Assembly (NCBI GenBank): GCA_012034865.1
Contig: JAAUOM010000002.1
Location: 1 to 64,000 of the forward strand
DNA from: Acaryochloris sp. CRU_2_0
GTDB lineage: Bacteria > Cyanobacteriota > Cyanobacteriia > Thermosynechococcales > Thermosynechococcaceae
DNA: 64,000 bases
Direction of reading: 5' to 3'
Shown here: piece after piece, positions 35,891 through 51,859 of the stretch
How positions within the stretch are numbered: the stretch's first letter is position 1
Layout: each line of letters opens with the position of its first letter
Position numbers and translations under genes: made by a program
The notes under the pieces: model-generated
What the model was told of the DNA's origin: nothing
Databases searched by the model: none
Seen by the model: only the letters and a program-made list of their open reading frames with translations

Positions 35891-37115
35891 TTAAGACTGA
35901 TGGTAAATATCGATTAATTGCTGGGTAAGTTGCTTTATGCTGTAGTGAGTTTCAACGCAAGAGCGGCCAGCCTTTCCCATCCTTAAGCATAGGTCAGGGT
36001 TTTCCATCAAAGCGGCTAATTTCTCAGCGATCGCATCTGCATCCCGCTCAGGTACTAAAAAACCTGACACGCCATCTTCGACAAGCTCTGGAATGCCACT
36101 ATGTTGAGTGCTAATAACGGGAAGCCCCATTGCCATTGCCTCCATGATGGCAACAGGTATTCCTTCTTGATCCCCTTTTCGACCTGTAACACTGGGTGCT
36201 AATAACAGATGAGACTGATTTAAAATTTCAATTACTTCATTTTGAGCTTTCCACCCTAATAATTCAACCCTATTCTCAACCTCAAGTTCACTCATGAAAT
36301 GTTCTAACCTATCACGCAAGTCACCCTCCCCAATGATCCTGTACTTCAGGTTAGGGTACTGTTGTTGAAGTTTAGCAATTGCTCGGATGCCATACTCAAT
36401 CCCTTTTTTCTCGATTAAGCGAGCAACGGTAGTAATCCGAACTTGACCTCTAGAGGGGTTGTCTAGCAATAAACAGAAATTTATTGCAATCAATGCCCAT
36501 ACGATGCACTGTAACTTTATGGGAGCTACATCCTAGTTCAATCAAGCGATTTTTCCAGTGTTCACTGATAGGCAAGAATCGATCGCCCTGCATGAATAAC
36601 TTTTGGTAGGCATTATTACCAGCTTCTTGCAGATATTCAGTGATATCCCAAGCATGAAAGGTAGTATAGAGTTTACCTTGAATTGCTCCTATCTCTTTGA
36701 GCTGCATTCCCAAAATTCCCAAATGCCCAAAGTGGCAATGAATGACGTCGTAGGTTGGGCGCTTCCTTAAGAAAGGAATAATAGCATAGAAAAGTCGTAA
36801 AGAAAGTGCCTGCTTTCCATGTCGAAAGAAATTAAGAGCACGTATGGCCAGAACAGGATCTTGAAACAGACTGCTCACAAATAGGATCAACGCCTTCCCA
36901 ATTCGGAGAAAATAATTACGAGGGATAGATGGATAATAATAGGTGTGATTCAACAGTTGATATTTATCGATGTCGGGATGAATAGCAGTTGGGTTTTGTG
37001 GCTGGGTTGCATAAATATCGATAAGATGGTTTTGCTCAAGGATATTTGTAATTTGACTGAGTATAAATGTCTCTGATACTGATGGAAAATCTCCAACCAA
37101 ACATGCAATATTCAT
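35891..37115 (-). pseudogene. GT4-type glycosyltransferase (colanic-acid-style), frameshifted
   Basis: ATG 37115 opens MNIACLVGDFPSVSETFILS; YDVIHCHFGHLGILGMQLKE, YTTFHAWDITEYLQ and VTVHRMGIDCNKFLFIARQP are typical of WcaL/AmsK-like enzymes. The frame breaks at the G4 run 36455-36458 (one base too many, or two too few) and resumes SRGQVRITTVARLIEKKGIE then LLGWKAQNEVIEIL and EGIPVAIMEAMAMGLPVIST. Repaired length is 407 residues. This is the only break not repaired by adding one base. Confidence 0.85.
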
Positions 37116-37350
37116 GTGATGTATTGTCTTGAAGTAACTCAGAGTCTCGGCAAAAGTTATTTATTAAACGATTTGTCTATATATTTATTTTTTATCTTAA
37201 TACCAATTCGTTTTAGTTCTGCAAATAAGCTAGCATTTGTTGTAAAAGTCTCGCATTTGATCCATAGGTCTAGTCATTGCATTCTTCAATTACGTGAACT
37301 AAGTGAACAGTAAGACTCTCACTGCTTGAATGAGAATAATGAAAGTTTTA

Positions 37351-39291
37351 TCATTGTAGCGATTCTCCTTGAACACATTTTTTCCACCATAGAGCAAGGG
37401 ACATCATTCGCCACAGATATAAGGGATTGTTATAGGCCAGATGCTCATAGCTCTCTGAACTCAGTTGTTGCCAATTTAGGTAGGGACAGTCTAGTGATCC
37501 AATAGCATAGCAAAAGCGCGATTTTGAGGTTAAAAGCCATTGAGTATATGGAAAAGGAAACCCAGCTTTTACTTTACGCCAAGCCACTTCAGGCGGCAAG
37601 ATATCTTTCATCCCTTGTCGGAGAATCCACTTCATCCAACCTTGCCTAACTAAATAGCTAATAGGCAAGCTGAAGGCAAAATCAACAATTCGATAGTCCA
37701 AAAAAGGAAATCTTAACTCTATCGGAATTCCCATGGCTGATTTATTGGAAGATCGCATCCAGTAATTCATACGCCAGTCACCCATGTTATCGATTAGTCG
37801 TTGGTGTAGATCGGAGGATGCTCCTAGTCTGTCGATATGCTGAGGAACAATAAACGGATCAAGAGAGGGGGATGCATTGATTTGAGGTCTTTTGAGGATC
37901 TGTAGGTTCTGAGGCAATAATCGATAGGCTTGGCTAGCATAGCCTAGACCGAATTTCTTAGAACGAGCTTCACTATATAGCAAAAATTCTCGGATGAAGG
38001 GTAGAAGAGATCCTTGACGCAGGAGCATTTGTAGATAAAGGGAGTGGTACTCTCCGGCATAACCAGCAAGCACTTCGTCTCCTGCTCCACCATGAAGGCT
38101 CACCCGAATGCCCTTATCTGCCATTTCTCGCCAGATACTCTGGTGAGTTAGCAGGTTGGGGGAATGGAAGGGTTCTTCGATGAGTTCGATATACTGATCT
38201 GCCTGGGTAAATAGGTCATTGGGGGGAGGGACAAAAACATTATAGTGAAGGCGATCTTGGTAATATTCAGCGACTTTTCGAGCAAAGGATTCTTCATCTG
38301 CTTCAGTCCCCGGGAAAGAAACGGTAAAAGTTTCAATGGGATTGCCACTATGGGCTGCAATAGCAGAGATCGAAGAAGAGTCCATACCACCACTAAGTTC
38401 AACGCCAACGGGAACATCTGCTCGTAAACGGATGCTCACTGCGTCTGTCAGTAAATGTCTGAGTTTTTGAATAGCCTCTGTTGGGCAGATATCTCGTTCT
38501 CGAAGTCTTTGGTTGGAAAGCTGCCAGAAACTTTGAGGATGATAGCTCCCATCCTCTTGAATCCAAGCATAGGAGGCTCTGGGAAAAGTGACAATTCCTT
38601 CATAGAAGGTGGTATCAAAAAGGTCACGCCAACTGTACTGAACAAAGTCAAAGACCGATTGATCACAAATGGAGAAAGCAGAGGAACCAAGGGCAGCAAA
38701 AATTCCCTTAATTTCAGAAGACCAGAATAAACCTTTTGCAGTTTGAGCGATGTAAAGGGGGGAAACACCGATGCGATCGCGCGCCAACAGCACTGCATTT
38801 TTGCGGGTATCGTACAAACTTAAAGCCCAAAACCCATTGAAATGTTGGAAACAATCCGTGCCCCACTCTAGGTAAGCTTCTACCAAAACTTCTGTATCAG
38901 AGTCAGTATAGAAAGTGTGACCCAGGGATTTCAGTTTTTGTCTCAGTTCAACATAATTATAAATTTCACCATTGAAGACCACACAAACTTGACAATCCTT
39001 TGACCAGAATGGCTGATGCCCAGAAGGTGAAATATCAACAATGGAAAAACGGCGATGGCCAAAAGCAATGCGATGGGGAACTGAACCCACTTTAGAGATA
39101 GCTTGGAGGCCAAGCACTCCCTGAGCAGTGTGTGTTGTCGCCAAATTAGTAATGTTTGAGCCTTTGCCAGAGAAAAGAGTTAAACCCTCATCATCAGGTC
39201 CTCGAAATGCAATAGCCCTCGTCATTTGCAAAATCTTCTCTGCTGATATTTCCAGGTGATCAGCTAGAAAATAACCTGAGATTCCACACAT
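37351..39291 (-). CDS. asnB: Asparagine synthase-like glutamine amidotransferase of exopolysaccharide locus
   Basis: 646 residues. It starts MCGISGYF with the catalytic Cys2 of the Ntn glutaminase, and has AFRGPDDEG, FNGEIYNYVELRQ and the ATP-pyrophosphatase loop ELSGGMDSSSISAIA. Both active centres are therefore intact, unlike the lasso cyclase at 48154. AsnB-like proteins are common in exopolysaccharide loci, where they amidate uronic acids or other carboxylates; genuine Asn synthesis is also possible. Confidence 0.85.
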   Translation of the reverse strand: MCGISGYFLADHLEISAEKILQMTRAIAFRGPDDEGLTLFSGKGSNITNLATTHTAQGVLGLQAISKVGSVPHRIAFGHRRFSIVDISPSGHQPFWSKDCQVCVVFNGEIYNYVELRQKLKSLGHTFYTDSDTEVLVEAYLEWGTDCFQHFNGFWALSLYDTRKNAVLLARDRIGVSPLYIAQTAKGLFWSSEIKGIFAALGSSAFSICDQSVFDFVQYSWRDLFDTTFYEGIVTFPRASYAWIQEDGSYHPQSFWQLSNQRLRERDICPTEAIQKLRHLLTDAVSIRLRADVPVGVELSGGMDSSSISAIAAHSGNPIETFTVSFPGTEADEESFARKVAEYYQDRLHYNVFVPPPNDLFTQADQYIELIEEPFHSPNLLTHQSIWREMADKGIRVSLHGGAGDEVLAGYAGEYHSLYLQMLLRQGSLLPFIREFLLYSEARSKKFGLGYASQAYRLLPQNLQILKRPQINASPSLDPFIVPQHIDRLGASSDLHQRLIDNMGDWRMNYWMRSSNKSAMGIPIELRFPFLDYRIVDFAFSLPISYLVRQGWMKWILRQGMKDILPPEVAWRKVKAGFPFPYTQWLLTSKSRFCYAIGSLDCPYLNWQQLSSESYEHLAYNNPLYLWRMMSLALWWKKCVQGESLQ

Positions 39292-39362
39292 ATTTATTGT
39301 CTACCTAAGATTTCCTTGGGAGGTTGTTAACCTTAGCAGTATCACCTTCAAAGAATTATAAT

Positions 39363-40871
39363 TTATAGAGTCTTTAGATCTACAATTATTTTTCTGACAT
39401 CTAAAAGAATCGATCTCCCCTTTTGTAAAGCTAAAAGACCGATAAAAAAGCTACTAATTGTGATCAAAAATACAATCAAACACCCTAGGAGAGGATCAAT
39501 ATCTATCGTCTTACGGAAGGTAATTAACACTAAGGCTGTCCCTGCAGAGGCGAAGGAAAAAGGAGCAATAACGATGTAAAAATCTTTGGTTTGAACTGAG
39601 CCTTTGCGCCCTACAAACCAAAACAGCAGAGGTATTGTCAGACCTATTGCAACCATTGAGTAGGCTGTAGCGACACCCTTTGCTTTCCAGGGTAAGCCAA
39701 TGACAAAAGATAGAACCGTCAGGGTGGAGCTAAGGATTCCCCAACGGAAAAAATCCTCTGTTCGACCTTGAGATATGAATAACCAGCCCGTTGAATTGGC
39801 AATAGGTCGCAAGAGGCCTGAGATACCAAGGAAGGTAAAGATAGGGCTAGCGGCTAGCCACTTAGATCCCAATAAAATTTGAATCAGCCAATCAGAGGTG
39901 GCAATCATAAATAGAATGATGGGCAAAGTAAACAGGAGAATTTTTTCTAGGAGTCGCAAGTAAATCTGGCGGTAGCGATCAGGAGAGTCTATGAGTCTAC
40001 TGAGAAGCGGCACCGCTACATTGGCAATAGGGGCATTAATTTGGCTAATGGGTAATAGTAATAATTGATATGCTTTGGTGTAGAACCCAAGTTGTGCAGT
40101 CCCCCAAACTTTGCCAATGAGAACATTATCAAGATTAAGGGCCAAGTAATCGACCACACTAAAACCGGTGACATGGCTACCAAAGGCCAACATGGATCGC
40201 ACACCTGATTTGCGGGTGGGTAAGCTGGGCTGCCAACGACAGGCGATCCAAACTCCCAAAGTACCCGTGGTGATAGTCACTAGGGGCAAGATCACCAAGG
40301 CCCAGTAATTGAAACCCCACCTAGCAGATAAGATGGCTGCACTAATTCCCAAAAATTGCGCCAGAATATCGTTGAGCATCAGTGCTTTGTAATGCATTTG
40401 GCGAGTGAGCAACGCCGTATGCTGAACCCCTAAACCACCAACCATAATGCCAGTGGCTAAAGCAATGGTTAGCCAAACTAAACGAGGTTCGTTATAAAAC
40501 CAAGCAATTCCAGGGGCGATCGCAACTGTTACCAAGGTTGCCATCAGACTAAACGTCACATTAACCCAAAAGAGAGTACTCACTTGTTGCTGATTGATCT
40601 CTTCCTTTTGGATGGTGGCCATTGATAATCCCAGGTCTTTAAAGAGGGTCACAAAACCCATCACCGCAGTTACCATACCCACTAAGCCGTAATCATTAGG
40701 GGTTAACAGACGAGCCAAGACAACGTTGGCAACAAGGTTTAAGGTAAATTTCAACCCTTGAGCGACAATGGTTATTGCACCACCCTTGACTGCACGGCTT
40801 TTTAAGTTACTTCGTAAATGCTCCGTACTAAAAAAATGATCAGAGTCACGACTAGACTTTTGAATACTCAA
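39363..40871 (-). CDS. Wzx-type polysaccharide flippase (MOP/PST family)
   Basis: 502 residues with about 12-14 membrane helices. SRAVKGGAITIVAQGLKFTL, NVVLARLLTPNDYGLVGMVT, FKDLGLSMATIQKEEINQQQ, ALNLDNVLIGKVWGTAQLGF and YTKAYQLLLLPISQINAPIA are the recurrent motifs of the PST exporters. It flips undecaprenyl-linked repeat units across the plasma membrane before Wzy polymerisation. Confidence 0.92.
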   Translation of the reverse strand: MSIQKSSRDSDHFFSTEHLRSNLKSRAVKGGAITIVAQGLKFTLNLVANVVLARLLTPNDYGLVGMVTAVMGFVTLFKDLGLSMATIQKEEINQQQVSTLFWVNVTFSLMATLVTVAIAPGIAWFYNEPRLVWLTIALATGIMVGGLGVQHTALLTRQMHYKALMLNDILAQFLGISAAILSARWGFNYWALVILPLVTITTGTLGVWIACRWQPSLPTRKSGVRSMLAFGSHVTGFSVVDYLALNLDNVLIGKVWGTAQLGFYTKAYQLLLLPISQINAPIANVAVPLLSRLIDSPDRYRQIYLRLLEKILLFTLPIILFMIATSDWLIQILLGSKWLAASPIFTFLGISGLLRPIANSTGWLFISQGRTEDFFRWGILSSTLTVLSFVIGLPWKAKGVATAYSMVAIGLTIPLLFWFVGRKGSVQTKDFYIVIAPFSFASAGTALVLITFRKTIDIDPLLGCLIVFLITISSFFIGLLALQKGRSILLDVRKIIVDLKTL

Positions 40872-40905
40872 GGGCTTAGCCTAATTAATCTATCGATACC
40901 CTAAC

Positions 40906-43203
40906 CTATGCCTTCAGGTAGGAATAGCTTTTATGGGTTTGGTTAACACCATTAGCCACCAAACCAATCACATTTAACTTTTCATGGGCAGAGATTGCCT
41001 TGGATAGATCGACGCGGGTGACTTGCTTCATGCGACCCACCATTACCACACCATCGCAGCCTAAGCCGATGGGAATGGAGTCAACAACACCCAAGACTGG
41101 GGGACTATCGATCAAGATCAAGTCGTAACTATCCTCAAAAGCCTTAACCACCTCCCGCAGGCGTTCTAGACTGAGTAACTTAACGGGATCGGCTGATAGG
41201 GGTCCGGCAGTTAACACATCAATACTCAAATCAGATGGGGGTAAGGTTTCTTGGTCTAGATCGGATTCATCCCAGCGCATATAAACCCATTGGGGGGTAG
41301 ATTGTAACTCTGCTAGGCTTATATCTCCCATTAAGAGTGTAGATAATCCTTTATGGTTATTGAGGTTAAACATATGATGTAAGCTAGGCTTCCGCAAATC
41401 CGCATCAATCACCAGCACTCGCTGATCAAGACGAGCGGCACTAATGGCGAGACCCAAAGCTAGGGTAGATTTGCCTTCCCCAGGACCGGCTGAGGTAATC
41501 ATCAAGGTTTTGTAGGGATGGTTGTTTTGCAAGAGTTGAATGTTGGTATAAATCAAATCCAACGCCTCTCGCAGGGGCTGCCATTGGAAGAGTTCAGGTG
41601 TAGTTAAGCTGGAATGGTGGGTAGAGCTAAAAAGGACAAGAGACTCCTTGAGATCAGTGACAGATAGTTCAGGAATCGCCCCCAACAAAGGTAAGGGGAA
41701 CTGGTGACTCAGATCATCGGAGGTATGGAATTTATCATCCATTGCATCTCGAACAAAAGCAGCAATAGCTCCTAGGAATAAGCCAACTACTGCTCCTAGT
41801 AATAAATTGCGTTTGACGTTGGGACTAATCTGCACCCCAAGTTGTGGGGCTTCTACCACTTGCCAGTCAAACCCCCCACGGGCAATTTCTAAACCTAGTT
41901 CTTGACGGGCTTCTAAGAGCTTTTGTAGGGTTTGCCGACGGGTGGATACCTCTGGTTGCAATCGATTGAACTGAGCCATGAGTTCTGGATATTTTTTCAG
42001 CTCAGCCGTTAATTTCGCTTCTGTTTGCGCGAGGCTGAGATCCCTAGCTTTGAGACTTCCCAAGGTTTTCTGCAATTCAGTCAACTGACTGACCAGGGTT
42101 AAGTCGTTTTTCCCCAGTTGACCCACATTGAGTTGATCAGTACTATTCGGCAATGACCCAGCCTCCGCACCTACCACCCGACGGACTTCTTGTTGTAACA
42201 AGGTCAACTGATCCTGGCGTTCATTGAGCAAATTGACAATATCAGGGTGATCACGGGTTAAGGTTTGCCTTTTTTGGGCTAGCTGCAATTCTGTTTGCTG
42301 AATTTGATTTAACAGCGCTTGATATCGAGAAGATTCGCTCAGACGGGCTGATGTGCGTGCTTGACTGGGGGATAACTGAATTTGATGCTGCACACTGGTG
42401 TAACTAGCATAGGCTTCACGGTATTGGGCATCTAACGCCTGACGTTCCGTTTTAATGCGCTCTAGAGCCGCTGCTGCCGCTTGGGCTTGGGTTTCGGGGT
42501 CAATGACGCTACTACCACTGCGAAAGACTTTAAGGGCGGCTTCTGCTTCTAAAACACTTCTGCGCACCTCTGGTAATTGCTCATCAATGAAGGCCAAGCC
42601 CTTGGACAGACGGAGCTTTTGTTGTTCCAGATTATAGAGCTGATAGACAGACAATATAGTTCGTAAGATGTGTTCGGCTTTTTCTGGACTTGAGCTGATA
42701 TATTCAGCTGCTAAAACCTTGGTCGCTACCCTACCTTTACCGGTATGATCGGGACCATAGACAGGACTAAAGGATAAAGAGAGCCGCAATTCCTTGAGGG
42801 TAAGGTCAGGATAGTCTGGTTTTAACCGTTCTACCACCCTTAATAGAGCTTCAGAGCCTGTTAAAACTTGTAATTGAGTGGTTAGGTCAACTTGAACATT
42901 AGAATCTGCGAAGCGATCTTCTGGTGCTTCGGATCCTGTCTGATTACTAGGCTTGGATTGATAATTGGATTCAACCAAAATCTGCATGGAACTCTGGTAG
43001 ACAGGTTGAGTGATTAAAGTCAAGAAAATAGCGCCTGCTAGGGTACCTACAAACGTGCCCATAAACCAAAATTTCCGACGAATCAAGATGGAGAGCAGTT
43101 GTCCATAGCCCCATTCTTTTTCCAAGCTTTGGGCAATTAAAGCGTCTTGCTTAGCGAGTTGATTAGAGTGAGTAGAGACTTTATATAAAGAGTTTTCATT
43201 CAC
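40906..43203 (-). CDS. Polysaccharide co-polymerase/tyrosine autokinase (Wzc/BY-kinase type)
   Basis: 765 residues. An N-terminal Wzz-like domain with TM1 at about 42-60, long coiled coils (200-430, with SGSSVIDPETQAQAAAAALE and QLAQKRQTLTRDHPDIVNLL), TM2 near 465-485, then a BY-kinase domain: Walker A with Lys578 (SAGPGEGKSTLALG), Walker A' VLVIDADLRKPSLHHMF and Walker B YDLILIDSPPVLGVVDS. The C-terminus has only a short Tyr tail (KSYSYLKA). It controls chain length and export. Confidence 0.92.
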   Translation of the reverse strand: MNENSLYKVSTHSNQLAKQDALIAQSLEKEWGYGQLLSILIRRKFWFMGTFVGTLAGAIFLTLITQPVYQSSMQILVESNYQSKPSNQTGSEAPEDRFADSNVQVDLTTQLQVLTGSEALLRVVERLKPDYPDLTLKELRLSLSFSPVYGPDHTGKGRVATKVLAAEYISSSPEKAEHILRTILSVYQLYNLEQQKLRLSKGLAFIDEQLPEVRRSVLEAEAALKVFRSGSSVIDPETQAQAAAAALERIKTERQALDAQYREAYASYTSVQHQIQLSPSQARTSARLSESSRYQALLNQIQQTELQLAQKRQTLTRDHPDIVNLLNERQDQLTLLQQEVRRVVGAEAGSLPNSTDQLNVGQLGKNDLTLVSQLTELQKTLGSLKARDLSLAQTEAKLTAELKKYPELMAQFNRLQPEVSTRRQTLQKLLEARQELGLEIARGGFDWQVVEAPQLGVQISPNVKRNLLLGAVVGLFLGAIAAFVRDAMDDKFHTSDDLSHQFPLPLLGAIPELSVTDLKESLVLFSSTHHSSLTTPELFQWQPLREALDLIYTNIQLLQNNHPYKTLMITSAGPGEGKSTLALGLAISAARLDQRVLVIDADLRKPSLHHMFNLNNHKGLSTLLMGDISLAELQSTPQWVYMRWDESDLDQETLPPSDLSIDVLTAGPLSADPVKLLSLERLREVVKAFEDSYDLILIDSPPVLGVVDSIPIGLGCDGVVMVGRMKQVTRVDLSKAISAHEKLNVIGLVANGVNQTHKSYSYLKA

Positions 43204-43214
43204 AATTCAGTTAT

Positions 43215-44342
43215 TCAGCTAATAGAGGGAACAAAGGAGCCGGAATTACAAAGCCAAGCGGGATTAACCTGATTAATAATTTGATGAATCTTTTCAAAAA
43301 AGATAGTTTCAGAGAATTGGGATAGTGCATGATTTCTAATTAGATGATGATCCCAATGGATTTGTTGCGATCGCAACAGTGCCACCTCTAAAGCACTCAC
43401 TGTTTGTTGATGAAAGAAGACACTGGTCTTATCAGGAATTTGGGTATCGAGGATGCCTCCTACCCCGTAAGAGATCACAGGTGTACCACTGGCATTGGCT
43501 TCTATCGGCACTAAACCATAATCTTCCAGCGCGGCAACGACCACACCCCTGGCTTTGGCCATTAAATGACAGCGTTCTGCATCCGAGACGTAACCCAAAA
43601 ATTGAGTATTCGATAAGGCTCGGCTTTCCAAGTTCTTTCGTTCTGGCCCTTCTCCCATAATTTTCAATGGCCAGCCTAGCTTATTAAAGGCATCAACAAT
43701 AATATCAATTCGCTTATAACTGAGCAAACGAGAAGAGACTAAATAGTAATCTTCTTTTTGATCAGAAAAGGTAAATTGATCACTATCAATGGGGTAATTG
43801 ACGACGAGGGCTTGTTTTCTGTAGGTTCTCTGAATCCGGCGAGCAACTTCAGTAGAATTAGCGATGTACAAGTCTGGCTCTTGTGCATAGGCTAAATCAG
43901 CCTTCCTCATCATTTTGAACATTTTCTCAATAAAGGGATATAAATGCTGGTAGTCCGCATATTCGCGCAGGTAGGTTTGGGTATCCCAGAGAAAACGGGT
44001 GACATTGTGGCAAAAGCAAATATGTTTGGCATCCGGCCTTTTCCGGACAGCCTTGGCAAAACTGGTACTGCTGCTAATAATCAGATCATACTTCTGCAAA
44101 TTGAGAGACCTGAAGGCTGGGTAATAAAAAGGTGCCAGCAATCTAAAATACTTTGTTGCCCCTGGTATTTGCTGTAGCACTGTCGTATGCACAAGGCGAT
44201 CGCCCAGCTCAATCGTCCGTTGTGGATCGTACAAGGATGTAAAAATATCAGCATGGGGAAAGCGACGACACAACAACTCAAATACTCGCTCAGCGCCTCC
44301 TCGTTGGGTAAGATAGTCATGAACTAGAGCGATTTTTATCAT
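43215..44342 (-). CDS. GT4-type glycosyltransferase, probably first gene of the locus
   Basis: 375 residues. MIKIALVHDYLTQRGGAERV then CFCHNVTRFLWDTQTYLREY, IANSTEVARRIQR, DYYLVSSRLLSYKRIDIIVD, NTQFLGYVSDAERCHLMAKA and EDYGLVPIEANASGTPVISY are typical of the cyanobacterial GT4 group found beside Wzc. It starts 587 bases away from the lasso ABC exporter and lies 12 bases upstream of the tyrosine autokinase gene. Confidence 0.9.
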   Translation of the reverse strand: MIKIALVHDYLTQRGGAERVFELLCRRFPHADIFTSLYDPQRTIELGDRLVHTTVLQQIPGATKYFRLLAPFYYPAFRSLNLQKYDLIISSSTSFAKAVRKRPDAKHICFCHNVTRFLWDTQTYLREYADYQHLYPFIEKMFKMMRKADLAYAQEPDLYIANSTEVARRIQRTYRKQALVVNYPIDSDQFTFSDQKEDYYLVSSRLLSYKRIDIIVDAFNKLGWPLKIMGEGPERKNLESRALSNTQFLGYVSDAERCHLMAKARGVVVAALEDYGLVPIEANASGTPVISYGVGGILDTQIPDKTSVFFHQQTVSALEVALLRSQQIHWDHHLIRNHALSQFSETIFFEKIHQIINQVNPAWLCNSGSFVPSIS

Positions 44343-44929
44343 GCGTTTGTAATCAAGGAGCTACCTTAGGAAGGTTTTTGAGTTGGAGAACTGGAAGCCT
44401 AGGCAGGATTCAAGGATTAGGCATGAAGATAGCATAAGTCTTACAAAATGCCTATGCGCAAAGGAATATTTTCAGCTTAAAACCATCATTCTACCGACAT
44501 TTCATCAAGTTCAGTGTTCGAGCTAAGACAACCTTGACTCTACAGCAATAATCCTAATAGGCTCCACATTTTCCACTTCTTTCTGACCTCCTCGGCTTCA
44601 GTATCCCCACCATAGAGACCCACAAAACCCAACTGGGATTTCATTCCTCAAAATCTACGAATAAACATATGTATAAAATAAATGGGTGAAACTCTAGGGA
44701 AGAAGACTTTGCCAGTAGAGCTTGGCAGCAGTAACGCGACCAGGCAAGCGTCATGGATAAATGCAGAAGTAACCAAACTGTGCTAAACAGCAGAAAGGTA
44801 GACCCTAGATACCTCACTAGAAAATCAGCTTGTTGGGCTACCTAGTATAGCTTTATATTTTGTCTTGGGCAAATAATTCCAAAACTTACTTCGGACAAAT
44901 AATTCTTAAAACGGTCTCTTTCTGTCTTT
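44343..44929. promoter_or_regulatory. Intergenic region between lasso operon end and exopolysaccharide operon
   Basis: 587 bases with no coding signal I trust. It should contain the exopolysaccharide promoter (minus strand, upstream of 44342) and the end of the lasso operon. An imperfect direct repeat, GCAAATAATTCCAAAAC at 44869-44885 and ACAAATAATTCTTAAAAC at 44895-44912, lies just downstream of the lasso ABC stop. No strong intrinsic terminator found. Confidence 0.35.
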
Positions 44930-46747
44930 CTAGCGATAATTCTGTGCTTGAGTCTCGAACATGAATGCATAGACGCCATTAATAGCCATTAAATCGTCAT
45001 GTCTGCCTTCTTCAACCACCCTACCTTGAGACATCACATAGATATAATCAGCCATTTTTACCGTGGATAACCGATGACTGATCAAAATGGCCGATTGGTG
45101 TTGAATCAGTTGCCGAAACTGCTGAAACACTTCATACTCAGCCTTAGGATCCATGGCACTGGTTGGCTCATCAAGAACAATCATCTGGGAGTCCCGCAGA
45201 AACGCTCGTGCCAAGGCAATCTTTTGCCACTGGCCAATGCTCAGTTCTTCCCCTGCATCAAACAACTTACCCAGAACTGTATCGTAGCCTTTGGGTAAAG
45301 TTCTAATCACCTGATCTGCGCCAGATAAGCGGGCAGCGGCAATGACGCGATCATCTTCAAGGGGTAAATCCACATTGCCTAACCAAATATTTTCTTTGGC
45401 AGTAAAATAATATTTGGCATAGTCTTGAAAAATGACACTGACTTGACGGCGTAAATCTGCGATCGCAAACTCTCGTAAATCAATCCCATCTAGCGTGATC
45501 GAACCATACGTCGGATCGTATAACCGACAGAGCAGTTTAATCAGCGTCGTCTTCCCAGAGCCATTTTCACCCACCAAGGCAATCACCTCCCCTGGTCGAA
45601 CCCTCAAAGTGATATTCTCTAGAGCCTGACGGTTGGTGGTGCCATATTGAAAACTCACCTGATTAAACACAATCCCCTTTGTCCAGGGCAGTGGCAGAGG
45701 CCGAAGATGGATCGGATCCAGCACCTTTGGTTGCAAATCGAGGAACTCATACAAATTGACTAAGAAAAGATTATCTTCGTATAAACCCGATCCGCCTTGC
45801 ATCAGATTTTTAAGGTTCGTCTGTCCTCGTTGCAGGGCCTGAGAGTAGAGAACCAGATCTCCTATCTGTAAACGACCTTGAATCGTTTGATAAACAATAA
45901 ACGCAAAAATAGCCAAAACAACCAGCCCTGCGCCCGCTTCAGTGCCAAAATACAAAAAAGATCGGTTCTTTAAAATTTGCACCGTTTCTTGATAGAGCTG
46001 CTGCCGGATACCCAAATACCGTTTGCTAAACAATGAACCTAAATTGAACAGCCGAATTTCTTTAGCACACTCATCCGTCGTCAGCATCCACCCCAAATAC
46101 ATACTTTGCCGCTGCATCTGAGTTCGCCGACGTTGCCACTGATACATCGTTTGCGAATAGCGAATTTTAACGATAACAGGTGGAATTGCCGTCACCAGTA
46201 AAACCCCTAAAATACCCCAGTGCAAAGCAACCAATAAGCCCAGCATCGCCACTAGGGAAATGCCATTTTGTCCGACCTGTGCCAAGCGATCTAGAATCCG
46301 AGGGGGGCGAAAAGGGGCTTCTTGTTGGGCACGCTGCAACAAATCATGATATTGGGGATTTTCATAATGTTCTAAATCAGCCGCGATCGCCTTAGCATGA
46401 ATAATTCCCTGCATATAATCGGTCACACGTTGGGCATGGGCTTGATTGACTAGCTCTGCTAAAGATGTAAACGAGGTAGTTAAAATGGCGACAATCCCCG
46501 ATAGGATTAGCAGCGGCACACAGTTTTGAAAAGCAGCCGCTTTATTCACTACCGTCACACTTACCGCAACCGCATCAATGATCAGTTTAGTCAGATAAAT
46601 CCCAGCAACAGGCAGAATTCCTTGGGCAATGACTAACGCCACCCTAGCAGTGGTCCAACCTGGACTACTGTCCCAAACCAGCCGAAGGGCGGGTAAAAAG
46701 TGGATATTTTGGGCAACCCTCCGCTTTAATTTGTTGGCCAATCCCAT
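44930..46747 (-). CDS. Lasso peptide exporter, ABC transporter with fused permease/ATPase
   Basis: 605 residues. An N-terminal six-helix ABC permease domain, then an ATPase: Walker A VGENGSGKTT with Lys399, signature ELSIGQWQKIALARAFLRD (LSIGQ in place of LSGGQ) and Walker B MIVLDEPTSAMD. No N-terminal C39 peptidase domain, so it exports an already processed peptide; the leader is removed by the B2 protease encoded at 50816-51277. Such D-type exporters give both secretion and immunity in lasso systems. Last gene of the operon, 42 bases after the kinase. Confidence 0.88.
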   Translation of the reverse strand: MGLANKLKRRVAQNIHFLPALRLVWDSSPGWTTARVALVIAQGILPVAGIYLTKLIIDAVAVSVTVVNKAAAFQNCVPLLILSGIVAILTTSFTSLAELVNQAHAQRVTDYMQGIIHAKAIAADLEHYENPQYHDLLQRAQQEAPFRPPRILDRLAQVGQNGISLVAMLGLLVALHWGILGVLLVTAIPPVIVKIRYSQTMYQWQRRRTQMQRQSMYLGWMLTTDECAKEIRLFNLGSLFSKRYLGIRQQLYQETVQILKNRSFLYFGTEAGAGLVVLAIFAFIVYQTIQGRLQIGDLVLYSQALQRGQTNLKNLMQGGSGLYEDNLFLVNLYEFLDLQPKVLDPIHLRPLPLPWTKGIVFNQVSFQYGTTNRQALENITLRVRPGEVIALVGENGSGKTTLIKLLCRLYDPTYGSITLDGIDLREFAIADLRRQVSVIFQDYAKYYFTAKENIWLGNVDLPLEDDRVIAAARLSGADQVIRTLPKGYDTVLGKLFDAGEELSIGQWQKIALARAFLRDSQMIVLDEPTSAMDPKAEYEVFQQFRQLIQHQSAILISHRLSTVKMADYIYVMSQGRVVEEGRHDDLMAINGVYAFMFETQAQNYR

Positions 46748-46767
46748 GGAACCTGCTTATCCCACAT

Positions 46768-46797
46768 TTCATAATCACAATGTTCATAATCACAATG
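46768..46797. repeat. 15-bp tandem duplication at kinase/exporter junction
   Basis: TTCATAATCACAATG occurs twice head to tail (46768-46782 and 46783-46797). The duplication lies across the stop codon of the kinase gene and the ribosome-binding region of the ABC exporter, so it may change their spacing. It is probably a simple slippage product. Confidence 0.8.
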
Positions 46798-47701
46798 TAG
46801 AAGGCTGCAAATGACTTTCCACTAATTGCGCCATGTCCGCCACTAATTCTAAGTGATGCGGACGCTCTAACCGATACAAAGGAACATGACGAATCACCGC
46901 CATGCATTGCTGGAAATGCACCCCTCCAGGTTGACCTTGGAGCAATTGGGGACTCCCTTGGGCAAAGTAGGTATGGGTAATCAATTGTTTAATTGCCTCT
47001 TGTAGACCCAGGGGCTGAGCTGCAACCACTGACCCCTTCGCCAATTGGTACACCCCTTTGAGGGGTAGAGAATCTTGGGCAAATCGTTCAATATTGCGAC
47101 GCGATCGTTTTTCATAACCTCTGGCCAGCGTTGGCAAAGTGTCAGGATGATCCCCCAAGGCAAATACTGCCGCTTCCGGCAACAGTTTAAGCTGAGGAAA
47201 ACCAGGGATAATTCTGGGCGGCTCTTCAGCCTTAAGATCCACCAGCACCAGATCATCCGCCACTAAATGGTGCCCACGTCCATAGAGGGTTGCGGCCAAG
47301 GTCGACTTTCCCCAACCCTTCCCAGCAATAAATGCAGCCACACCACCGTTAATAGCCACAGCACTGCCATGCAACACCAAAAATCCCCGTTGATGCAGAA
47401 TAACTGCCAGCAAAATTCCTAAAATGGGCAAGTGGAGTAGACGCTCTTCCACATTTGGCTCCGGATCCAGGATGATTTCTTGGCCATCACGCACCGAAAA
47501 AGCACCCACATCCTCCCAAAAACAAGAAACTTCGTGGGCACCGATGTAACGAGACATTCCTAAATTGATCTGGGAGAACCGAGAACGATCCACCACTCCA
47601 AAGCGAATGACCACATCAGGCGGTGATTCATCAATGGCAATGAGTTCTGGGAAGTGCAAGACAGAACTTAAATTCAGACCATAGGCTCGATAAAAATACA
47701 T
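46790..47701 (-). CDS. HPr-kinase-like protein, probable lasso-peptide tailoring kinase
   Basis: 303 residues. The N-terminal region (MYFYRAYGLNLSSVLHFPEL, then VVIRFGVVD) is typical of the HprK-like proteins in RiPP clusters. LVLHGSAVAINGGVAAFIAG followed by KGWGKSTLAATL is the P-loop (residues 126-134), and LVADDLVLVD (Asp149/Asp150) is the second metal/nucleotide motif. In paeninodin-type lasso clusters such kinases phosphorylate a C-terminal Ser of the precursor. The precursor here has Ser42 as its penultimate residue. The gene follows the precursor, separated by a strong hairpin. Kinase activity on the peptide is an inference. Confidence 0.8.
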   Translation of the reverse strand: MYFYRAYGLNLSSVLHFPELIAIDESPPDVVIRFGVVDRSRFSQINLGMSRYIGAHEVSCFWEDVGAFSVRDGQEIILDPEPNVEERLLHLPILGILLAVILHQRGFLVLHGSAVAINGGVAAFIAGKGWGKSTLAATLYGRGHHLVADDLVLVDLKAEEPPRIIPGFPQLKLLPEAAVFALGDHPDTLPTLARGYEKRSRRNIERFAQDSLPLKGVYQLAKGSVVAAQPLGLQEAIKQLITHTYFAQGSPQLLQGQPGGVHFQQCMAVIRHVPLYRLERPHHLELVADMAQLVESHLQPSTL

Positions 47702-47771
47702 CCGTTTTATAATTCACAACTAGGTTTAGAACCGCTACAGCTTGTTTTTGCAAGACACCTCAAAAGCAAAT

Positions 47772-47798
47772 GGAGAGAAACAAGCTTTGTTTCTCTCC
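47772..47798 (-). terminator. Strong hairpin between lasso precursor and kinase genes
   Basis: A perfect 12-bp inverted repeat with a three-base loop: GGAGAGAAACAA (47772-47783), GCT, TTGTTTCTCTCC (47787-47798). On the minus strand it lies about 86 bases after the precursor stop and about 70 before the kinase start, and is followed by ATTTGCTTTTG, a weak U tract. It could be a partial terminator or an RNA-stabilising stem that keeps precursor mRNA more abundant than the downstream tailoring and export genes. Confidence 0.7.
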
Positions 47799-47883
47799 AC
47801 CCAACTCAAGCAATTGAGCAAACGATTGTCTGTAATCACACTCCCATGGCTTCTTAAAGATTAGGATTGCAGTTGCGGCTAGC

Positions 47884-48015
47884 CTATACTGAAGGGAACG
47901 CGGTATTTGGTGCGCCACGAGGCACATCGGAGTTAACTATACCCCCTTGTAGGGTAATCGTTTCAACATTGCCATGATTGGTCAGTTGTGGCCGATGATA
48001 TGTTTTTTTATCCAT
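47884..48015 (-). CDS. Lasso peptide precursor (43 residues)
   Basis: ATG 48015 with a Shine-Dalgarno AGGAG seven bases upstream; stop TAG at 47884-47886. The leader MDKKTYHRPQLTNHGNVET matches the lasso leader pattern YxxPxLxxxGxxxxxT exactly: Tyr6, Pro9, Leu11, Gly15, Thr21. With Thr21 at position -2, cleavage after Leu22 frees a core that begins Gln23 (QGGIVNSD), so Asp30 is core position 8 and can close an eight-residue macrolactam with the N-terminus. The tail is VPRGAPNTAFPSV. If cleavage were after Gln23, Gly24-Asp30 would give a seven-residue ring. Flanked by cyclase and kinase genes on the same strand. No homologue is claimed. Confidence 0.85.
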   Translation of the reverse strand: MDKKTYHRPQLTNHGNVETITLQGGIVNSDVPRGAPNTAFPSV

Positions 48016-48153
48016 AATTTTCTCCTGACACAAATATGATGTAACAATAGCTAATTTTCATCAAGATTGGCAAGTTTTTCATAAGTCTGTTAGATTTTAC
48101 GGGGGATAACAGCACTCTAGCAATCACAATTATTGGCAGACCAGCAAAAGCTT

Positions 48154-50076
48154 TCAAGGTGTTATGCCTGTGTATTGTAACCACAGCCCTAAAGAAACTG
48201 CTCTCCATACAGCATTTACCTCTGATACAGTAGCATCACCTGCCATAAAACGATGATATTTCTCCTGTAAAGCCAAAATATCTACATATTCTGCAAGAAT
48301 TTCTGGTTTTTCAAATAATACTAACTTCGTAGGATACTTATCATAGGTTTTGAAGCTATACTCAAAACCAGGATGCATATTTGCCTTATCAGGTCGCCAT
48401 TGTAATGATTTAGGTAAAATGCCGTCCATGGCGTTACGCATCACCCACCGCCCCCAACCCTGATTTAATTTCTGATGGGCGGGTAGGGCTAGGCAAAACT
48501 CTATAAGGCGTTTGTCAAAGAAAGGAAACCGCAGATCAACAGCCAATGCTCCTCCTGCTGGATCGAGCAGATCAAACATGGAAGAGTGAATATTGGCCAT
48601 CAACAATCGATAATGATTTTCTCTTTCTGTAAGCGGGGGGAGCCGTTGGAGGTTTTGCAATTTTTCTTGTAGGCCAATCCGTTGAACAAAAGCAGGTTGG
48701 AGTGGCATATCCAATAGATCGATATGGTTGGCTTCTGATGGAGGGGCATCAGGGGTCAATTTTATGGCTTTGATCGGTTGAATGAGAGGAGCGAAGGTGG
48801 GGTGAAGTCCATATCTCCATATCCAGCGCAGCAGCACTTTTGGCCAAGGTAACTGATATCGTTGGCCATAGGCTCTGGTTTCCATCGCTAGGGTCAACCA
48901 ACGACCCGCTTGCGCTAATTCTCGCAGGTATTCATTGCCGTGGGAGACAGTGGTATCGCCATCCCAGCCATCCAAAATAACCCGAACGTCATGCTGTTGG
49001 GCAATCTTATATAATCCCCAATTGAGGCGGAAATTTCCGGCCAGTAGAGCTGCATCCCGATGCCATAGAACCTTTTGATAGTCCGTCAACGGTCCTAGTT
49101 GGTCTCCTTGCAAGAGGTGGGATTCATAATTGCCCTGGGCTAAGACGGCCTCTTGGTACGCTCGTTCATCGGAAGCCAGAATCTGATCAAACCGGGCTGA
49201 GAAGGTGTGTAAAGGCTGATGGGGAGAATGCTGGTCGAGAAGCTGGCGAGCGACACACGTAATAGCTGAGGAGTCTAAACCGCCACTGAGCATGGAACCA
49301 ACCGGGAAGGCACTGCGTAAACGACATCGGACTGCCTCAGTAAAGAGTTCTAAAAACTGATCAGCATAATCTTGGTTGGAGCTGAGTTTGAGTTCTTGAG
49401 GATTGGCGTCTAGTTCCCAGTAAGGGCGCAAAGACAATCCAGCAGCATTAATGCGTAAACAATGGGCGGGGGGCAGTCGCAAGATACCTTGGTATAAGGT
49501 AATAGTTGGATCGTTATCCAGATTGGCGAGATGCTCGGCAACCCTAGCTTCATTCAGCCGTCGAGGCACTTGGGGAAGACTGAGGAGGGCTTTAATTTCA
49601 GTGGCAAAAACAAAATCATCCGCCGCGTAATAGTAATAAAAGGGCTTGACGCCAAAGGGGTCGCGTACGCAGAATAGCTGTTGCTGACGCTCATCCCAAA
49701 TAGCGAAAGAAAAATCACCCAGGAGTTGCTGGGGACAGGCTTCACCCCATTTTTCATAGGCCAATAGGATTAAATGACCATCCGAGAGTTGATCTACTGG
49801 GGCATGGGTCACTTCAAGGGTGGCAATCAGGGAGTCGCGATTATCCAAGCGGGCATCGGCGGTCAGGATTAGATCCCTTCTGGGGTTGATCAGGGGACAT
49901 TGCTCATACAAAGATTCTGGGGTTGTCCAGAGTAAACGACGACCCAGGCCAATGCAGTCTTGGCACCATGCGCCCAGGCCATCAGAGCCTCGATGGGCTA
50001 AGGTATCCAGCATTTTGCCCAGATGCTCTGGGTCGACTGGGGTATGCCACTGATAAATTCCGAGGATGGCGCTCAC
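48154..50076 (-). CDS. Lasso cyclase (asparagine synthase-like, McjC-type)
   Basis: 640 residues. The Ntn-hydrolase domain (LAHRGSDGLGAW, LLGDFSFAIWDERQQQLFCV, RDPFGVKPFYYY) is followed by the ATP-pyrophosphatase loop SGGLDSS at 264-270 and DGWDGDTTVSHG. The usual catalytic Cys2 is absent (MSAILGIYQW; residue 2 is Ser), so it cannot hydrolyse glutamine in the normal way. That fits the lasso cyclases, which adenylate the ring Asp/Glu side chain and use the core N-terminal amine as nucleophile. It is placed directly before the precursor and 85 bases after the oxygenase. Confidence 0.88.
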   Translation of the reverse strand: MSAILGIYQWHTPVDPEHLGKMLDTLAHRGSDGLGAWCQDCIGLGRRLLWTTPESLYEQCPLINPRRDLILTADARLDNRDSLIATLEVTHAPVDQLSDGHLILLAYEKWGEACPQQLLGDFSFAIWDERQQQLFCVRDPFGVKPFYYYYAADDFVFATEIKALLSLPQVPRRLNEARVAEHLANLDNDPTITLYQGILRLPPAHCLRINAAGLSLRPYWELDANPQELKLSSNQDYADQFLELFTEAVRCRLRSAFPVGSMLSGGLDSSAITCVARQLLDQHSPHQPLHTFSARFDQILASDERAYQEAVLAQGNYESHLLQGDQLGPLTDYQKVLWHRDAALLAGNFRLNWGLYKIAQQHDVRVILDGWDGDTTVSHGNEYLRELAQAGRWLTLAMETRAYGQRYQLPWPKVLLRWIWRYGLHPTFAPLIQPIKAIKLTPDAPPSEANHIDLLDMPLQPAFVQRIGLQEKLQNLQRLPPLTERENHYRLLMANIHSSMFDLLDPAGGALAVDLRFPFFDKRLIEFCLALPAHQKLNQGWGRWVMRNAMDGILPKSLQWRPDKANMHPGFEYSFKTYDKYPTKLVLFEKPEILAEYVDILALQEKYHRFMAGDATVSEVNAVWRAVSLGLWLQYTGITP

Positions 50077-50161
50077 AATGATTTGGGGCAGATTAAAAGG
50101 ACTAGATCAAAGATTTTTGGTGGGGTCGATCGCTCATTATCCCGCAGATACGTTGTCGTTT

Positions 50162-50806
50162 TCAGGTGTACCAACTGACTAGGGTATATCTTTCTCCAGC
50201 GGTTACTGCTTGGACTTCATGCCAAAGGTCGGAGCGAAAGGCAACGAGGAGACCGGGTTGTCCTGGAAAGGGAAACCCATGGGTTTGCCACTGGGATGGA
50301 TCAATGAGTCCATAGAAAACTAGAGAACCGCCACAATAGCATCTTGGCTGGGGATCTGGGGTTTGTTCATTCAAGAAAAGGATGACAGATATTTGCCGTT
50401 CCTGTAAAAAGGAAGGCGCATCGGATTGGAGAGTGCGATGACCGAAGGTCGGTCGGAGACCATCGCAATGTGCCCCAAAAAAACTGCCTTGGCTATAGCG
50501 ATAGAATAAGGGATTTTGGATCCCCGTCAACTCTAAATTGAAATGGCGGGCTAGAGTTGGTTGCAACTGACGTAATTGGGCGGTGATCCAATCCGTGGTT
50601 GTACTGGGAACTTGTAGTTGTTCTGTTTGTCGATGGTAGGGATCAACTTGAGCGGTCAGAATTTGCCGATCCTGTCTAGGCAAAACTAGCGCAGGCTGAC
50701 CGTCGGCTGTTTGGAGCTTTGTTAACAGGTCTATACAGGATCGGTGATCTAAAAAGTTAGGCTGAATAAATAAGCCCAACTGCCTAAATAAATCTAAACT
50801 CAGCAT
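50162..50806 (-). CDS. 2-oxoglutarate/Fe(II) dioxygenase, probable lasso-peptide hydroxylase
   Basis: 214 residues. A prolyl-4-hydroxylase-like fold: FFGAHCDGL gives the HxD iron ligands (His113, Asp115), LWHEVQAV the distal His196 and GERYTLVSWY the 2-oxoglutarate-binding Arg206. The whole facial triad is present. It sits between the leader peptidase and the cyclase genes with gaps of 9 and 85 bases. Such enzymes hydroxylate residues of RiPPs; candidate targets here are Asp30 or Asn28 of the ring and the Pro residues (32, 36, 41) of the tail. Target is inferred. Confidence 0.85.
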   Translation of the reverse strand: MLSLDLFRQLGLFIQPNFLDHRSCIDLLTKLQTADGQPALVLPRQDRQILTAQVDPYHRQTEQLQVPSTTTDWITAQLRQLQPTLARHFNLELTGIQNPLFYRYSQGSFFGAHCDGLRPTFGHRTLQSDAPSFLQERQISVILFLNEQTPDPQPRCYCGGSLVFYGLIDPSQWQTHGFPFPGQPGLLVAFRSDLWHEVQAVTAGERYTLVSWYT

Positions 50807-50815
50807 GATTCAGGA

Positions 50816-51277
50816 TCAGTTTAAGGCGGGCATGGGTGTAAATCGAGACAGATCTTCGACTTGGCCCATGACGACTTTGCCTTCCAATTCAACCCAGGCA
50901 TGGGCTTCTAGCTGATCTAAGGTTGTTTTGGCAACCCCAATCCGCAGTTGCGGGTCATAATTGTGACGACGCAGCAATAGCTGAGTAATTAAGGCGCGTG
51001 CCAGACATTTGACCTGACCGGGCATATAGCGACTACTAATATTGACCGCCCAAATAATCTCACCGACCTTTCTGGGGTGGGCGGGATGGGCTGGTGAGGA
51101 GGGGGTAGGGTCAGGGGACTGACCAATGTTATCCAACCCTCTCAGTAAGGTTTGAAAGGGCAACAACCATAGACCCAGCCGGATGCCGATTAGGAGTAGA
51201 AAGGTTTGGATGAGGGCGTTGCGATCGCAATTCCTTAACCGGAAAAACTTAAGTACTCGCCTCATCTTTAATCTCAA
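50816..51277 (-). CDS. Lasso leader peptidase B2 (transglutaminase-like cysteine protease)
   Basis: About 153 residues from ATG 51277; an alternative ATG at 51265 is equally possible. A hydrophobic N-terminal helix (TFLLLIGIRLGLWLLP) is followed by a Pro-rich linker and the catalytic core: Cys91 in GQVKCLARALITQLLLRRHN, His126 in LEAHAWVELEGKVVMGQ and Asp142. This is the Transglut_core3/McjB C-terminal domain, which removes the leader with help from B1. It overlaps the B1 gene end. Confidence 0.87.
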   Translation of the reverse strand: MRLKMRRVLKFFRLRNCDRNALIQTFLLLIGIRLGLWLLPFQTLLRGLDNIGQSPDPTPSSPAHPAHPRKVGEIIWAVNISSRYMPGQVKCLARALITQLLLRRHNYDPQLRIGVAKTTLDQLEAHAWVELEGKVVMGQVEDLSRFTPMPALN

Positions 51278-51551
51278 TCAATTCTGATTCAGCTAATTCT
51301 TGCAAGAGACTCAGCACATCCTGTTCGCACTGCTCTGCCGCTACCTCATACTCCTGTAAGATCGCATCACAAATATCATGGACTGAACGCGGCTCCTGAA
51401 GCAAATTCCAAATGCTTGTACCAACTTCATTTAAGCCAAAATACATCCCTGTTTTCAGGTTGAGGATAACAGACTCACCCGCTAAATCAGACGAAACTTG
51501 TTCGGGGGTAGCAACAACAGTGGTCTGTTTAGAAATTGTTGTTGTAATCAA
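51249..51551 (-). CDS. PqqD-like RiPP recognition element (lasso B1)
   Basis: About 100 residues from TTG 51551 (SD GAGAGGAGAG ten bases upstream); an upstream TTG at 51578 is possible but lies in front of the SD. VVATPEQVSSDLAGESVILN, LKTGMYFGLNEVGTSIWNLL and EYEVAAEQCEQDVLSLLQEL are standard PqqD-like/RRE features: a small winged-helix domain that binds the Tyr/Pro/Leu leader motif and hands the precursor to B2. First gene of the lasso operon. Confidence 0.87.
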   Translation of the reverse strand: MITTTISKQTTVVATPEQVSSDLAGESVILNLKTGMYFGLNEVGTSIWNLLQEPRSVHDICDAILQEYEVAAEQCEQDVLSLLQELAESELIEIKDEAST

Positions 51552-51859
51552 CGATGTAGCTCTCCTCTCAAGGGTCAATACTCAAAAACGGTCAATTTTA
51601 AACTCAATTTTTCAAAGCTAGCACAGATTTTCTCTATTCTGTACAGGGATAAAAATATCTTTTAATGCAAAATCCAAAATTCTTCCAGACATCAACCTAA
51701 AATCTCCACGGCTGCCATCAAGCGGTCTGAACAAATGGTCGCCATCCCTAGATAAAGTGATCCAGATCTCCAGGAACTTCTACCCACATCACGCCGACGA
51801 TCTAAGAAACCCCTCATACTCAATTGAGTGGGTTGGGAGATAGAAGGACGGAGTTGGTT

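Follow-up and report, generated by a model that had tools for sequence, protein, structure and literature searches.

The window, a 64,000-nucleotide stretch of contig JAAUOM010000002.1 of Acaryochloris sp. CRU_2_0, carries a lasso peptide gene cluster whose genes lie on the minus strand in the order B1, B2, 2OG-Fe(II) oxygenase, cyclase C, precursor A, kinase K, and exporter D (Table 1). The combination by which a lasso gene cluster is recognized, namely a YxxPxL leader with its Thr together with B1, B2, and the cyclase, is present. The earlier note had described a precursor ending in Ser-Val beside an HprK-like kinase, and we confirmed the open reading frames, the residue numbering, the completeness of the lasso cluster, and the intact H-K-D-D catalytic set of the kinase.

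Table 1. Genes of the lasso cluster and codons of interest in precursor A (positions in the window)
Feature	Position	Strand	Evidence or remark
B1, PqqD/RRE protein	51249-51578	-	NF033536, over cut-off
B2 leader peptidase	50816-51277	-	NF033537, over cut-off
2OG-Fe(II) oxygenase, probable second tailoring enzyme	50162-50806	-	PF13640
Macrolactam cyclase C, asparagine-synthetase-like	48154-50076	-	NF033535, over cut-off
Lasso precursor A, 43 aa	47884-48015	-	ORF; NF033528 and NF033521 matches
Ser29 codon, in ring	47929-47931	-	Varies (S,A,S,R,R)
Thr38 codon, putative phosphosite	47902-47904	-	Sole core Ser/Thr invariant in 10 precursors from 5 loci
Ser42 codon, site proposed by the earlier note	47890-47892	-	Reads S,S,A,N,N across the five nearest precursors
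Val43 codon	47889-47887	-	
HprK-like lasso-precursor kinase K, 303 aa	46790-47701	-	HprK-related profile matches
ABC exporter D	44930-46747	-	81-82% identical in L086/L087

Precursor A translates as MDKKTYHRPQLTNHGNVETITLQGGIVNSDVPRGAPNTAFPSV, ending in Ser42-Val43. It scores 32.3 bits against the lasso_cyano model NF033528, just under the cut-off of 33, and passes the lasso leader model NF033521 (19.4 bits; cut-off 19). The YxxPxL motif of its leader is formed by Y6, P9, and L11, and Thr21 lies near the cleavage site. With the published leader anchors Tyr(-17) and Thr(-2) (PMC10368454) as a guide, we place the end of the leader at Leu22, which would give a core of Gln23-Val43 with a ring closed at Asp30 (core residue 8). 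Alternatively, a core starting at the more conserved Gly24 would have a seven-residue ring, Gly1-Asp7. Asp30 falls at core position 8 with the first cleavage site and at 7 with the second, in agreement with the Asp or Glu at core 7-9 that is expected of lasso peptides.

The oxygenase gene recurs in the clusters of loci L031, L087, L193, L089, L090, and L094. In those oxygenase-bearing clusters whose precursors were read, an Asn precedes the ring Asp by two or three positions, and this ring Asn may be what the enzyme hydroxylates. CanE, likewise a 2OG-Fe(II) enzyme of a lasso cluster, hydroxylates a C-terminal Asp (PMC9266682). The genomes nearest to the window are Acaryochloris MAGs. When positions 43215-51578 were compared with the same-genus loci L088, L090, and L094, B1 was 76-81% identical and the downstream glycosyltransferase was 80-84% conserved in L088 and L090, whereas K and C reached just 42-45%; the far better conservation of B1 and the glycosyltransferase suggests that the central cassette has been exchanged at what is apparently the same locus. 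The lasso cluster is followed downstream (36450-44342) by an exopolysaccharide-type set of two GT4 glycosyltransferases, a Wzz/ParA-like protein, a polysaccharide flippase, and an asparagine synthase; given these surroundings, the glycosyltransferase at 43215-44342 may lie outside the lasso pathway.

Kinase K matches three HprK-related models, each below its family cut-off (TIGR04352, E = 5e-8; TIGR00679, 4e-6; Pfam Hpr_kinase_C, 9e-7), and we rejected its assignment to the HPr kinase/phosphorylase equivalog TIGR00679, whose cut-off of 240 lies far above the 26.2 bits that K scores. At the sequence level, its similarity to HprK is limited to the catalytic core around the P-loop. The AlphaFold model of K (mean pLDDT 94.7) has a PEPCK/HprK fold; it aligns with PEPCK over nearly its full length (Z 17.8, rmsd 4.2, 265 residues aligned), and Foldseek also matches it to HprK. 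HprK itself (1jb1, 1kkl, and 1ko7) has the P-loop/DD core and the fold in common with K, but differs in its N- and C-terminal parts, and its substrate is the HPr protein. The catalytic residues H111, K132, D149, and D150 are all intact in K and invariant among 44 aligned kinase homologues, and the same H-K-D-D residues are required in the lasso kinases ThcoK and BsfK (PMC9266682, PMC10368454). On the predicted model, K consequently shows the H-K-D-D set on an HprK/PEPCK fold that marks an HprK-like lasso kinase, and we infer that it is an active one.

K is under purifying selection in the window, L086, and L087, the last of which has a precursor tail without Ser. The pairwise dN/dS values obtained by three methods (window-L086, 0.09-0.11; window-L087, 0.11-0.14; L086-L087, 0.14-0.24) are rough, because dS is high. 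The kinase is also a regular companion of the precursor: 30 lasso_cyano loci came from 19 of the 386 genomes of the phylum, and a homologous kinase lies within 3 kb in 28 of these loci, which argues that the pairing is not due to chance; the cluster of a 29th locus (L002) has a kinase homologue as well.

Phosphorylation away from the C-terminus by HprK-like RiPP kinases has precedents, and the sites described in lasso and related peptides are the C-terminal Ser and core Ser3. The paeninodin-type lasso kinases (PadeK, ThcoK, SyanK, and PsmK) modify a strictly C-terminal Ser (reviewed in PMC9266682). Judged by the published descriptions, the window shares with them an HprK-like gene in a lasso cluster, the H-K-D-D residues, and a presumably linear precursor as substrate; however, their precursors, like those of the window's sisters, have a C-terminal Ser, whereas the window's ends in Ser-Val and its orthologues in SA, AAG, or NV. 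BsfK of Bradymonas sediminis, which is aided by B1, modifies core Ser3 in the ring (PMC10368454), and by its published description resembles K as an HprK-like lasso kinase with the H-K-D-D residues; its site is non-C-terminal, as that of K would be. We rejected a BsfK-type site for the window, where core position 3, counted from residue 23, reads G/T/S/G/G in the five closest precursors. LppK takes part in making linear polyphosphorylated peptides modified at Ser3, with an SpI-like peptidase and no cyclase (PMC13381572, 2026); the window resembles this system in having an HprK-like kinase, a discrete RRE, and a precursor that would be modified away from its C-terminus, but as its cyclase is present, we rejected a linear polyphosphorylated peptide cluster. 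The earlier note's expectation of a variant of known chemistry stands, with the addition that the BsfK and LppK sites, both away from the C-terminus, had already been published (PMC10368454, PMC13381572). Our literature search found no paper on the kinases of cyanobacterial lasso clusters, with most subscription papers lying outside its coverage.

To place K among its relatives, we collected 118 loci, of which nearly all have kinase homologues, and examined the precursors encoded there. Scanning the genome contigs with the window kinase as a single sequence gave no relatives; these were retrieved by a search with an alignment of four kinases. In the kinase tree, the window's clade stands apart from a clade II of 58 loci, most of them from Nostocales and Moorena. 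In the window's clade, many precursors end in Ser (L033, L088, L090, L092, L095, L194, L197, L199, L200, L204, L091, L102, and L103, as well as some paralogues in L032 and L193), and by their sequences these sisters appear to follow the paeninodin rule. Others have a Ser followed by a short extension (GSV in L195, SSL in L198, SA in L086, and SDA or SDP in L039/L050), and extended and Ser-ended paralogues occur together in L193 (ISG with LS) and L032 (TFSGTF with TFS). A penultimate Ser is therefore seen repeatedly, and the window is not unique in having one.

Several unusual cores were encountered in this survey. At position 3831 of L091 there is a precursor with a poly-arginine core, GYGRRRRRRSHARRTFYKRAKYKHPLGSGS, and a Ser at its end. 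L039 and L050 have the core QVKPKKLGASDD with kinase and cyclase present; it is without Asp or Glu at core 7-9, and the first Asp is found at core 11. The LTQQVGGSGGFGTT cores of L045 and L046 (also L012 and L015-L017) are likewise without Asp or Glu at core 7-9, and in L045 and L046 they adjoin a kinase, B1, B2, and an exporter, with no cyclase match there; these precursors are perhaps non-lasso RiPPs.

The window's own subclade consists of four genomes with five precursors: the window, G399 (L086), G397 (L087), and G118 (L031, with two precursors). The kinases of G399, G397, and G118 are 72-73%, 70%, and 61% identical to that of the window, respectively, and the clade is well supported; a search of 388 genomes of the class found no orthologues beyond these four. 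The tails read NTAFPSV in the window, NTAFPSA in G399, NTAFPAAG in G397, and NTAFPNV and DTAFPNV in G118, so that a strict C-terminal Ser of the paeninodin type was rejected for the subclade (endings SV, SA, AAG, NV, and NV). Position 42 is accordingly S,S,A,N,N across the five precursors (Ala in L087, Asn in both of L031), all beside intact kinases; if the kinase depended on Ser42, it would be left without a substrate in G397 and G118. Position 29 reads S,A,S,R,R. When the five precursors of G437 (L193), whose kinase is 49% identical to the window's, were added, Thr38 was the only core Ser/Thr common to all 10, and the invariant core residues were Asn28, Asp30, Gly34, Thr38, and Ala39. Among the other Ser/Thr residues that the earlier note had offered as alternative sites, Thr38 thus gained support from its invariance, whereas Ser29 lost ground. 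Nor were there orthologues whose tails lack any Ser/Thr, an observation that the note had named as one that would speak against its proposal, because Thr38 is kept. The invariance of Thr38 was not accepted as proof of the site: when 5 of 21 core columns are invariant, chance alone would place one or more of the three Ser/Thr residues among them in 58% of cases, so that the conservation of Thr38 could also reflect threading, plugging, the lasso fold, or the oxygenase.

A further clue comes from the kinases. Trp at position 174 together with Phe, Tyr, Leu, or Ile at 249 was found in 16 of 43 compared kinases; a Ser-ended precursor is present at 15 of the 16 loci with this signature and at 1 of the 27 without it. 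All four subclade kinases lack it, having Leu174 and Gly249, and the window's K reads Leu174 and Gly249-Ser250 where the C-terminal-Ser kinases have Trp and Phe/Tyr/Leu/Ile-Gly. The branch that carries these changes is also the one on which the C-terminal Ser was lost. L195, with the tail GSV, retains the signature. Fisher's test of signature against tail type gives p = 1.6e-9 with kinship ignored, and the independent pairs number only 2-4, too few for us to claim statistical proof. Since there were only 2-3 independent changes, with the whole subclade counting as one event, the correspondence between kinase signature and C-terminal Ser is suggestive, but not proven.

Based on these observations, the reading that we tentatively favor, as plausible rather than probable, is that K still phosphorylates the linear precursor at a site that is no longer C-terminal, Thr38 being the simplest new position. 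K would be a functional HprK-fold enzyme acting on one hydroxyl of the linear precursor before the leader is removed, probably with the help of B1. In the ancestor of the near sisters, the phosphorylated hydroxyl would have been that of the C-terminal Ser. The window's subclade would then have lost this Ser from its precursor while the kinase changed from W174 to Leu and from an aromatic or aliphatic residue to Gly at 249. Loss of the C-terminal Ser combined with changes at the very residues that mark C-terminal-Ser kinases suggests an inward shift of the site. The invariant tail Thr38 in N/D-T-A-F-P would be the simplest choice shared by all members, with Ser42 a remnant that is not obligatory, and we infer this phosphosite on those grounds. 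The lasso kinases known so far modify Ser, which counts against Thr38. BsfK accepts the mutant S3T, so Thr is a usable acceptor for at least one relative (PMC10368454); LppK rejects S3T (PMC13381572).

The earlier note's own proposal, that K phosphorylates Ser42 and either tolerates one residue after it or acts once Val43 has been trimmed, would imply that in the orthologues with Ala or Asn the modification has disappeared or falls on a different residue. It draws support from the C-terminal Ser of most of the nearer sisters, whose kinases accompany strictly Ser-ended precursors, from the recurrence of a Ser with a 1-3-residue extension (L086, L195, L198, L193, and L032), and from L086, where the position of the Ser relative to the end is retained. 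However, L087 has Ala at this position and the two L031 precursors have Asn, with intact kinases in each case; the window kinase has also lost the W174/249 signature, and we regard Ser42 as an unlikely, although serious, candidate. That K serves another substrate, or has lost its activity and acts as a scaffold, seems to us improbable: its sequence agrees with the HprK models only around the P-loop and scores below the family cut-offs, and the literature searched reports no assay of cyanobacterial clade members, but the catalytic residues are invariant in 44 homologues and the kinase almost always adjoins a precursor. Quite improbable is modification of some other, non-conserved core residue that varies by orthologue, such as Ser29 or position 3. 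BsfK and LppK do modify core Ser3 (PMC10368454, PMC13381572), but the window has Gly at position 3 and its orthologues have Gly, Thr, or Ser, and Ser29 varies as S,A,S,R,R.

Other tail types occur among the relatives. In clade II (e.g., L034, L040, L106, L115, and L122) only 5 of 92 counted precursors have a Ser at the end, and 67 of the 92 carry a core motif [GDN]-[ST]-x-[DN], mostly G-S-x-D (GSVD, GSID, GSRD, or GSLD); most Moorena precursors of this clade have S-L-D-C instead. By its sequence, the motif is a candidate internal phosphosite. The window's genome also encodes a second kinase homologue, 27-30% identical (G000:C172:39983-41090; L044, 7984-9091), followed by a small peptide with a lasso leader that ends in SLGGLS. 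No B1, B2, or cyclase was found in 18 kb of sequence with this pair, which recurs within the genus (L078, L080, L081, and L082, with tails LGGLP, LTI, LGGLN, and LGGLNS) and possibly makes a linear phosphorylated peptide.

Taken one step further, the favored move to Thr38 would mean that a kinase lineage was retargeted from the C-terminal Ser to Thr38 through residue 174 and the 249-250 loop, and that its product is a natural phospho-threonine lasso peptide. We consider this fuller version possible, if rather doubtful. If true, it would offer a residue-level handle on site choice, and by the same logic clade II kinases would phosphorylate the internal Ser of the G-S-x-D tail motif. The natural orthologues that are without Ser42 make site choice directly testable. 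Within this cyanobacterial set, one kinase family accompanies three kinds of tail, namely the strict C-terminal Ser, the internal G-S-x-D, and the window's T-A-F-P type, which has neither of these; should site choice depend on residue 174 and the 249-250 loop, this family would serve as a simple system in which to study how a peptide kinase chooses its residue.
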